The position numbers and the translations under genes were made by a program. 56,169 nt of DNA from Candidatus Zhuqueibacterota bacterium. Lineage in GTDB: Bacteria; Zhuqueibacterota; Zhuqueibacteria; Residuimicrobiales; Krinioviventaceae. A model generated the notes under the pieces. That model did not search any database. It was not told where the DNA came from and saw only the letters and a program-made list of their open reading frames with translations. Location of the stretch: assembly GCA_016934825.1 (NCBI GenBank), contig JAFGSB010000040.1:1-56169 (forward strand), in the 5' to 3' direction. Below are positions 54,023 to 55,588 of this stretch, piece by piece. Numbering within the stretch: position 1 is the stretch's first letter; every line of letters begins with the position of its first letter.

Positions 54023-55588
54023 ATGATTTTAAAGAAATTCTTCTTTTTCCTCAAAGGTATAATTAAAACCATTTTTCGATTTATTTTTTGGATATTTAAA
54101 AAGAAAATATTTATTGGTATTCTGGCAGGAATTGTGTTAACCGTATTATTTAATGTCGGGATCAAGTACTCCTCAAGTGACAAGTTTTGCGAAAGTTGTC
54201 ATGTCCATCCACATTCGACGCTTTCGTGGAAAAAATCCGGTCATTTTGATAATAAAAGCGGGGTAACCGTCCACTGCATAGAATGTCACCTCCCGCCATC
54301 CGGAAATTACAAGTACTATACTGAAAAAGCGCGACTTGGCGCCCAGGATGCATACGGAAAATTGTTTAAAGACATCTCTAAAATAAACTGGGATGAAAAA
54401 TCCACATTAAATCATGCTGGTTCTTACACTTATGATGAGTCCTGTATTCATTGTCATGAAAACCTGTTTCCTATCGGTTTGTCAAAAAAGGGCGAGGATG
54501 CGCATCTTTATTACACAAGAAAAACAGATGAAATATTATGTATAAATTGTCATTTATACACCGGGCATTATTCCGAAAATGCGCGGCAGGAATTTGATTT
54601 TGGGCAAAAACCGACCGAAGCAAAAATAATATATAAAAAACCTGCAACAGTGACCGAATTTGAAAATTACACAGAGTACATTCCCAACAGCAGCGTTAAA
54701 TTCGACATGATAGCCATACCCGGCGGCACCTTTACAATGGGAAGCCCGGATAAGGAACCGTTACGGAATTATGACGAAGGCCCCCAAATCAGAGTCGATA
54801 TCAGCCCTTTCTGGATGGGCAAGGTCGAAGTGACCTGGGATGAATTTGAAGCGTTTTACGCGCAAACACATGTAGAAGGCCGTACCGATACTCAGATACA
54901 ACTGGTTTCAACAGATTCCGATGTCGATGCGGTGACCGGGCCGACTCCACCATACGGTAATCCCGGCCAGGGTTTTGGTAAAGGTGATCGTCCGGCCATT
55001 ACCATGACTCATTATACCGCGGAATTTTATTGTCAATGGCTGTCCGATGTGACCGGCAAAAAATACAGGCTTCCCACAGAAGCGGAATGGGAATACGCCT
55101 GCCGCGCGGGAACCGAAGGAGCTTATTTCTTTGACGGCAATCCCAAAAAATTTACCCGTCACTCTTTTTGGAACCGTATGTTTGGACCGGATACAGCAAC
55201 TATCAATTCCTATATAATCTATAAAGAGAACAGTATGGCAAAAACGCAACCATTTTCAAGCACAAAGCCAAATCCATTCGGTCTTTATAATATGCTGGGA
55301 AATGTGAAAGAATTTTGCCGGGACTGGTATGCACCGAATATCTACATGACTTATCACAATCAAGGTTCAATTAAAGATCCTGCCGGACCCGAATCAGGGA
55401 AAGAACATGTTATCAGGGGCGGCTCATTTAATAGTGATGCCGCATATGTGAGGAGCGCCGCGAGAGATTACACGCAATATAATAAATGGATGAGAACAGA
55501 TCCGCAGATGCCCAAGAGTTTATGGTGGTATTCGGATGTTGTTGATGTCGGTTTCCGGGTTGTCTGTGAATATGACGGTGAGGAATAA
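54023..55588 (+). CDS. Tetraheme NapC/NrfH-type cytochrome fused to an FGE-like (SUMF1) domain
   Basis: The product (521 residues from ATG 54023-54025, AGGA 10 bases upstream) starts with a basic, hydrophobic segment and a transmembrane helix (about 29-48). Four CxxCH heme motifs follow: CESCH (56-60), CIECH (85-89), CIHCH (141-145) and CINCH (173-177), the pattern of NapC/NirT/NrfH quinol dehydrogenases. From about 224 comes a formylglycine-generating-enzyme-like domain (MIAIPGGTFTMGSP, KYRLPTEAEWEYACRAG, HVIRGGSF, VGFRVV). The two copper-binding cysteines of true FGEs are missing: the segment after RGGSF reads NSDAAYVRS. The fusion suggests a quinol-linked periplasmic protein; the FGE part is probably binding or structural, or has another activity. 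Confidence 0.9.
   Translation: MILKKFFFFLKGIIKTIFRFIFWIFKKKIFIGILAGIVLTVLFNVGIKYSSSDKFCESCHVHPHSTLSWKKSGHFDNKSGVTVHCIECHLPPSGNYKYYTEKARLGAQDAYGKLFKDISKINWDEKSTLNHAGSYTYDESCIHCHENLFPIGLSKKGEDAHLYYTRKTDEILCINCHLYTGHYSENARQEFDFGQKPTEAKIIYKKPATVTEFENYTEYIPNSSVKFDMIAIPGGTFTMGSPDKEPLRNYDEGPQIRVDISPFWMGKVEVTWDEFEAFYAQTHVEGRTDTQIQLVSTDSDVDAVTGPTPPYGNPGQGFGKGDRPAITMTHYTAEFYCQWLSDVTGKKYRLPTEAEWEYACRAGTEGAYFFDGNPKKFTRHSFWNRMFGPDTATINSYIIYKENSMAKTQPFSSTKPNPFGLYNMLGNVKEFCRDWYAPNIYMTYHNQGSIKDPAGPESGKEHVIRGGSFNSDAAYVRSAARDYTQYNKWMRTDPQMPKSLWWYSDVVDVGFRVVCEYDGEE

Follow-up and report, generated by a model that had tools for sequence, protein, structure and literature searches.

A membrane tetraheme cytochrome fused to a formylglycine-generating-enzyme-like domain in Candidatus Zhuqueibacterota: a possible flavin link between periplasmic sugar oxidation and quinone

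The quinol dehydrogenase cytochromes of the NrfH, NapC and CymA type (PF03264) are anchored by a single N-terminal membrane segment and carry four CxxCH heme motifs; NrfH interacts with the quinone pool, and its residues Lys82 and Asp89 have been noted as conserved (PMC4683180). Among the extracytoplasmic flavin carriers, the FMN_bind/NqrC/RnfG, DUF2271, DUF3570 and Flavodoxin_4 proteins are flavinylated by ApbE (PMC8238504, PMC11334425), which recognises D-x-x-[ST]-G-A-[ST] and places FMN on its final residue; motif changes of Gly to Ala and of Ala to Val kept about half of the flavinylation (PMC12052999). In the glycoside 3-dehydrogenase pathways, represented by BT2156-BT2160 and by LacABC of Caulobacter, an exported Gfo/Idh or a cytochrome-linked dehydrogenase is combined with a 3-keto-glycoside hydrolase of PF06439 (PMC9007349, PMC11501099).

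The window, that is the whole stretch of 56,169 nucleotides analysed, contains a gene in which parts of these kinds come together. The parts themselves (NrfH cytochrome, PvdO/FGE fold, ApbE motif, Gfo/Idh) are familiar, and we found no paper on their combination in the open-licence literature searched, where none joined flavinylation with formylglycine or SUMF1, none treated formylglycine enzymes with multiheme fusions, none reported an FGE-fold protein as an ApbE substrate, and nothing relevant combined Gfo, ApbE and NrfH. The initial annotation of this DNA had allowed that the architecture might already have been characterised; no describing paper was met with in that literature. The pair of genes is filed here under periplasmic modules of a dehydrogenase and a cytochrome, set apart by its unusual linker domain.

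The fusion protein and its two domains

The fusion protein is encoded by one frame running from an ATG at 54023 to a stop codon at 55586-55588 (Table 1), and Pfam recognises its cytochrome part with an E-value of 1e-25 and its FGE part with 1.7e-46. With the CxxCH motifs at residues 56, 85, 141 and 173, the NapC/NrfH-like anchor with four hemes and the FGE fold are indeed contained in one polypeptide, as had been proposed initially. An assembly join of two genes, one of the objections foreseen at that stage, is ruled out by full-length fusions, which 23 of the 82 genomes in the window's phylum and nine genome records of Bacteroidota (L007-L015) contain; the search for other proteins joining both domains was thus successful in many independent genomes, and the fusion is no rarity.

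Table 1. Features of the locus, in window positions, and related heme-FGE fusions, given by locus.
Feature	Position	Strand	Basis
Tetraheme cytochrome-FGE fusion protein, 521 aa	54023..55588	+	single open frame; Pfam Cytochrom_NNT and FGE-sulfatase
NapC/NrfH-type membrane tetraheme domain, residues 28-183	54104..54571	+	Pfam; phmmer alignment to NrfH 2j7a; conservation in 14 homologues
FGE/PvdO-fold domain, residues 228-484 by Pfam	54704..55474	+	Pfam; AF2 model and structural match to PvdO, Z 31
Flavinylation-like motif DAVTGPT, residues 302-308; candidate FMN acceptor Thr308	54926..54946	+	conservation, motif counts
Two FGE copper-cysteine positions, here Ser471 and Val476	55433..55450	+	alignment to T. 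curvata FGE
Partner Tat-signalled Gfo/Idh dehydrogenase, cut by contig end	55637..56167	+	PF01408; TAT_signal_seq; conserved next gene
PSCyt1-type heme-FGE fusions, Verrucomicrobiota and Planctomycetota	L027, L031, L033, L050, L057, L058, L064, L065, L069, L074, L075		

In the alignment to Desulfovibrio NrfH, Lys102 and Asp109 of the fusion protein correspond to Lys82 and Asp89, and they are kept in 13 and in all 14, respectively, of the tetraheme-clade homologues compared. The PF03264 domain, the four CxxCH motifs, the N-terminal membrane helix and these aligned quinol-site residues place the protein among the NrfH/NapC cytochromes; its score against the NrfH equivalog TIGR03153 is 65 bits, below the cut-off of 134.

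The structural match of the FGE-fold domain extends to about residue 517 in the AF2 model. The comparison with PvdO and FGE structures, which had been suggested at the outset, showed PvdO (Z 31, 30% identity) to be nearer than FGE structures (Z 26-27), and PorK and variable proteins were also among the structural matches. The NCBIfam PvdO equivalog gave 106 bits against a cut-off of 500, and the fusion protein stayed far under the cut-off of every curated equivalog scored.

The domain has the fold of FGE and lacks its pair of copper cysteines. The Thermomonospora curvata segment GGSFLCHESYC aligns to GGSFNSDAAYV of the fusion protein, in an alignment whose motif was extended by eye and whose residues were counted by hand, and the replacement of both cysteines by Ser and Val, read earlier from the sequence, was confirmed. 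The accompanying view that the fold has lost its known active site stands as a reading of the sequence, and a recent loss within the fusion is ruled out: among 72 members of the FGE subfamily, picked by the motif DPQ-x-P-x-S, none has the first copper Cys and four have Cys at the second position, so that the missing site is old and the norm of the subfamily. The invariant positions of the FGE domain show no conspicuous metal-binding set of Cys or His. Activity as a true FGE in sulfatase activation is ruled out by the missing Cys pair; the neighbour maps revealed no systematic linkage to sulfatases, single sulfatase-like ORFs occurring in them.

Distribution of the subfamily and its Gfo/Idh partner

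Besides the tetraheme forms, the FGE subfamily has members in Planctomycetota, Verrucomicrobiota and other Bacteroidota; most of these are separate proteins whose genes precede a Gfo/Idh gene. In the subfamily tree the FGE domains of the tetraheme proteins fall into a single clade (100/99). Eleven other members carry PSCyt1 heme domains (Table 1), two copies being found in the one member checked with Pfam (L050), and they lie apart from the tetraheme clade; therefore heme domains have joined the FGE subfamily at least twice. This separate fusion shows that the FGE-subfamily domain repeatedly works with cytochromes. In one further subfamily member (L017:4684-6852) the hemes are replaced by an extended N-terminal region that matches FG-GAP repeats weakly, and a Gfo/Idh gene follows. 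An FGE-like protein without the DPQ motif (L002, G000:C117:86242-86850) is likewise located beside Gfo/Idh genes.

The window is an entire contig (G000:C85), hence the downstream Gfo/Idh gene is cut at its end. In 22 of the 25 tetraheme loci with neighbours the fusion is followed directly by a Gfo/Idh gene of this type; counting up to three genes away, 24 have it, and one lacks it. The neighbouring Gfo/Idh proteins constitute one clade (97/97), in which the tetraheme-linked partners are a subclade (100/98), and FGE-domain relatives from other phyla are paired with members of this Gfo/Idh clade too. The parallel clades of FGE domains and partners indicate that the pair is inherited together. 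The initial suggestion that a redox module and a copper-less FGE fold work with a Tat-exported Gfo/Idh is thereby strengthened, the pairing being conserved over several phyla.

A Cys following the Tat signal (C27) is invariant in all 12 full-length tetraheme-linked partners aligned and, judged from the sequence, may be that of a Tat lipoprotein. One partner (L087), which retains the EKP motif characteristic of the Gfo/Idh enzymes, gave a model with matches to YjhC, inositol dehydrogenases, aldose-aldose oxidoreductase and glucose-fructose oxidoreductase (GFOR). GFOR holds its NADP without release, and NAD(P) may similarly stay bound in the partner clade. The partner is not a BT_2158 equivalog according to NCBIfam (34 to 55 bits, cut-off 750).

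About half of the tetraheme loci contain extra genes that fit an oxidative breakdown of sugars, such as a second Gfo/Idh related to the BT_2158 glycoside 3-dehydrogenase, ThuA, a PF06439 3-keto-disaccharide hydrolase and xylose-isomerase-like TIM barrels, and many loci consist of the two-gene pair alone. Elsewhere in the window's genome, the locus L112 (G000:C117:90000-109000) comprises Tat Gfo/Idh genes, a fusion of a TIM barrel with a 3-keto-disaccharide hydrolase, a PMT-like glycosyltransferase and an ApbE in which no signal peptide is obvious. It is partly syntenic with L162, in which a tetraheme-FGE pair sits within such a cluster.

A flavinylation-like motif and neighbouring ApbE genes

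Two observations go beyond the initial annotation, namely a flavinylation-like motif in the FGE domain and its linkage to ApbE. The window protein reads D-A-V-T-G-P-T and differs from the ApbE motif in one residue, Pro for Ala, as do most members of the subfamily at this sixth position. Asp302 and a Thr or Ser at position 308 are present in all 72 members, and the form D-x-x-[ST]-G-[PA]-T in 30 of 30 tetraheme proteins, with Ala in three of them; one more tetraheme protein, in L152, has the exact motif. In alignments, the acceptor position is occupied by Ala in FGE and by Gly in PvdO. Eleven of the 72 members carry the exact ApbE motif, against 0 of 942 other ORFs in these loci; its carriers are clustered by descent (Flavobacteriales and a few tetraheme lineages), so that the counts suggest more independence than there is. 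The segment is a loop of low confidence in the AF2 model (pLDDT about 63). DGLSGST is the corresponding sequence in the NqrC encoded by the window's genome, and this, together with the variants of about half activity (PMC12052999), indicates that ApbE tolerates some change of the motif; flavinylation of Thr308, beside a Pro, is a tentative prediction. The partner was considered as an ApbE target and rejected, as no conserved D-x-x-[ST]-x-x-[ST] segment was found in it.

In 24 of 72 loci an ApbE gene (PF02424) is found no more than three genes away from the FGE gene, a count made on members related by descent and therefore, like the motif counts, not independent; by a rough estimate, with about two ApbE per genome, this lies far beyond chance. 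A scan of the ApbE-bearing loci detected only one other ORF with even a relaxed motif. Among the tetraheme loci the adjacency was seen in one, L162, where the genes for tetraheme-FGE, Gfo/Idh, TIM-barrel isomerase, a PMT-like protein and ApbE follow in this order on one strand; near the window gene there is no ApbE.

The adjacency is divided according to the motif, 24 of 49 non-G variants (mostly [RK]-P-[TS]) having a neighbouring ApbE, compared with none of 23 of the G-type. The loci with a neighbouring ApbE are thus not those with the textbook motif, and a flavin model needs either co-diverged ApbEs or another ApbE target. Dedicated ApbEs could serve the divergent motif and housekeeping ApbEs the rest, and an unrelated role of ApbE might give the same pattern. 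A dedicated ApbE clade was sought and was weakly supported (79/91), two Pedobacter ApbEs falling elsewhere. The presence of ApbE was uninformative as a test in the window's class and lends little to the flavin model, since 62 of its 63 genomes carry one, among them all 21 that bear the fusion.

A possible electron route and its relation to known systems

We favour the reading that the two genes form a periplasmic, membrane-tethered sugar (glycoside):quinone oxidoreductase with covalent FMN on the FGE-like domain, a proposal to which we give nearly even chances. The substrate of the pair is presumed to be a sugar, of which the exported Gfo/Idh would oxidise a hydroxyl group, probably to a 3-keto-glycoside, by means of a tightly bound NAD(P) that would not be exchangeable in the periplasm. 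FMN, attached covalently to Thr308 by ApbE, would accept the hydride from the NAD(P)H of the Gfo/Idh and pass the two electrons on one at a time to the four hemes of the NrfH-type domain, from which (mena)quinone could be reduced at the NrfH-type quinone site. The fusion would in this manner probably couple the extracytoplasmic oxidation of sugars to the respiratory chain.

The sequence sugar, NAD(P), FMN, hemes, menaquinone is the most economical reading, because it gives each part a job. It is favoured by the conserved pairing with Gfo/Idh, the parallel clades and the second heme fusion, by the motif counts (30/30; 11/72 against 0/942), the ApbE adjacency and the gene order of L162, and by the quinone-site residues together with the 3-keto-sugar context in part of the loci. 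It is weakened by the Pro at the sixth motif position, by the lack of ApbE beside G-type motifs and beside the window gene, by the low confidence of the loop and by the many loci reduced to the pair.

The FGE-like domain may instead have no catalytic function and serve for docking, in the manner of GldK/PorK and the C-type-lectin-like variable proteins; it would bind the Gfo/Idh or the glycan substrate of that enzyme near the hemes, while electrons arrive without flavin from another carrier. The fold has many non-enzymatic members, of which PorK and variable proteins appear among the structural matches, and both the absent copper site and the tight pairing with Gfo/Idh agree with such a role. 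Nevertheless we consider it unlikely, for it leaves unexplained the acceptor Thr or Ser in every subfamily member and the ApbE gene that accompanies FGE and Gfo/Idh in a third of the loci (24 of 72), and the transfer from hydride to heme needs a two-to-one-electron converter. The resemblance to PvdO, the nearest structure, whose NCBIfam name is dihydropyoverdine dehydrogenase, suggests an enzyme oxidising or modifying a protein side chain, for which the fixed next-gene partner could be the substrate, or a sugar, with hemes taking up the electrons in place of the O2/copper chemistry. Such an enzyme appears distinctly unlikely in view of the lack of a metal-binding Cys/His set among invariant positions, and a modification enzyme for each dehydrogenase, fused to two types of heme domain, would be an odd cost for a one-time maturation.

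The electrons could also flow in reverse, quinol reducing a periplasmic keto-sugar through hemes and Gfo/Idh, as the quinol-driven step of the initial annotation implied. NapC/NrfH proteins normally oxidise quinol and Gfo/Idh enzymes are reversible, which makes this step possible; however, electrons run downhill from NAD(P)H to menaquinone, and wherever the neighbouring genes are informative (ThuA, 3-keto-disaccharide hydrolase, isomerases) they point to catabolism. This alternative is accordingly held to be improbable in the extended form given here. Sugar oxidation with quinone as acceptor fits at least equally well, and on the question of direction it is somewhat preferred to quinol-driven reduction.

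In a more general form, the sugar:quinone proposal would mean that a fold related to FGE and C-type lectins has become a covalent flavoprotein and with it a new class of ApbE substrate, linking periplasmic NAD(P)-dehydrogenases to quinone via fused hemes, with heme domains gained at least twice; we advance this tentatively. To our knowledge, how exported Gfo/Idh enzymes dispose of electrons without NAD(P) exchange in the periplasm is an open question in oxidative glycan breakdown. A conserved partner that combines hemes with an FGE fold, and that may be flavinylated, would settle it for many Bacteroidota, Planctomycetota and Verrucomicrobiota, and many proteins now named "formylglycine-generating enzyme" would have to be reannotated as electron-transfer proteins. 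If FMN were confirmed, a new class of covalent flavoprotein would be established.

Compared with NrfH, NapC and CymA, the tetraheme domain shows the same membrane segment, heme motifs and equivalents of Lys82 and Asp89, whereas it is fused to an FGE-fold domain and its conserved neighbour is a Gfo/Idh dehydrogenase instead of a nitrite or nitrate reductase. The FGE-fold domain has fold and core motifs in common with PvdO and FGE/SUMF1 (PF03781); it differs from FGE by the absence of both copper cysteines, and from both by the Thr or Ser acceptor in the flavinylation-like loop, the heme fusions and equivalog scores far under the cut-offs. With the ApbE-flavinylated carriers it shares the motif D-x-x-[ST]-G-x-[ST], the extracytoplasmic location and, in relatives, ApbE genes nearby, in another fold and with Ala changed to Pro in most members. 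The likeness to the glycoside 3-dehydrogenase pathways lies in the exported Gfo/Idh and, in part of the loci, the PF06439 hydrolase and ThuA-type genes. In contrast to BT2156-BT2160, the direct partner is not the BT_2158 equivalog, and in contrast to Caulobacter LacABC, the proposed electron acceptor is the heme-FGE fusion.
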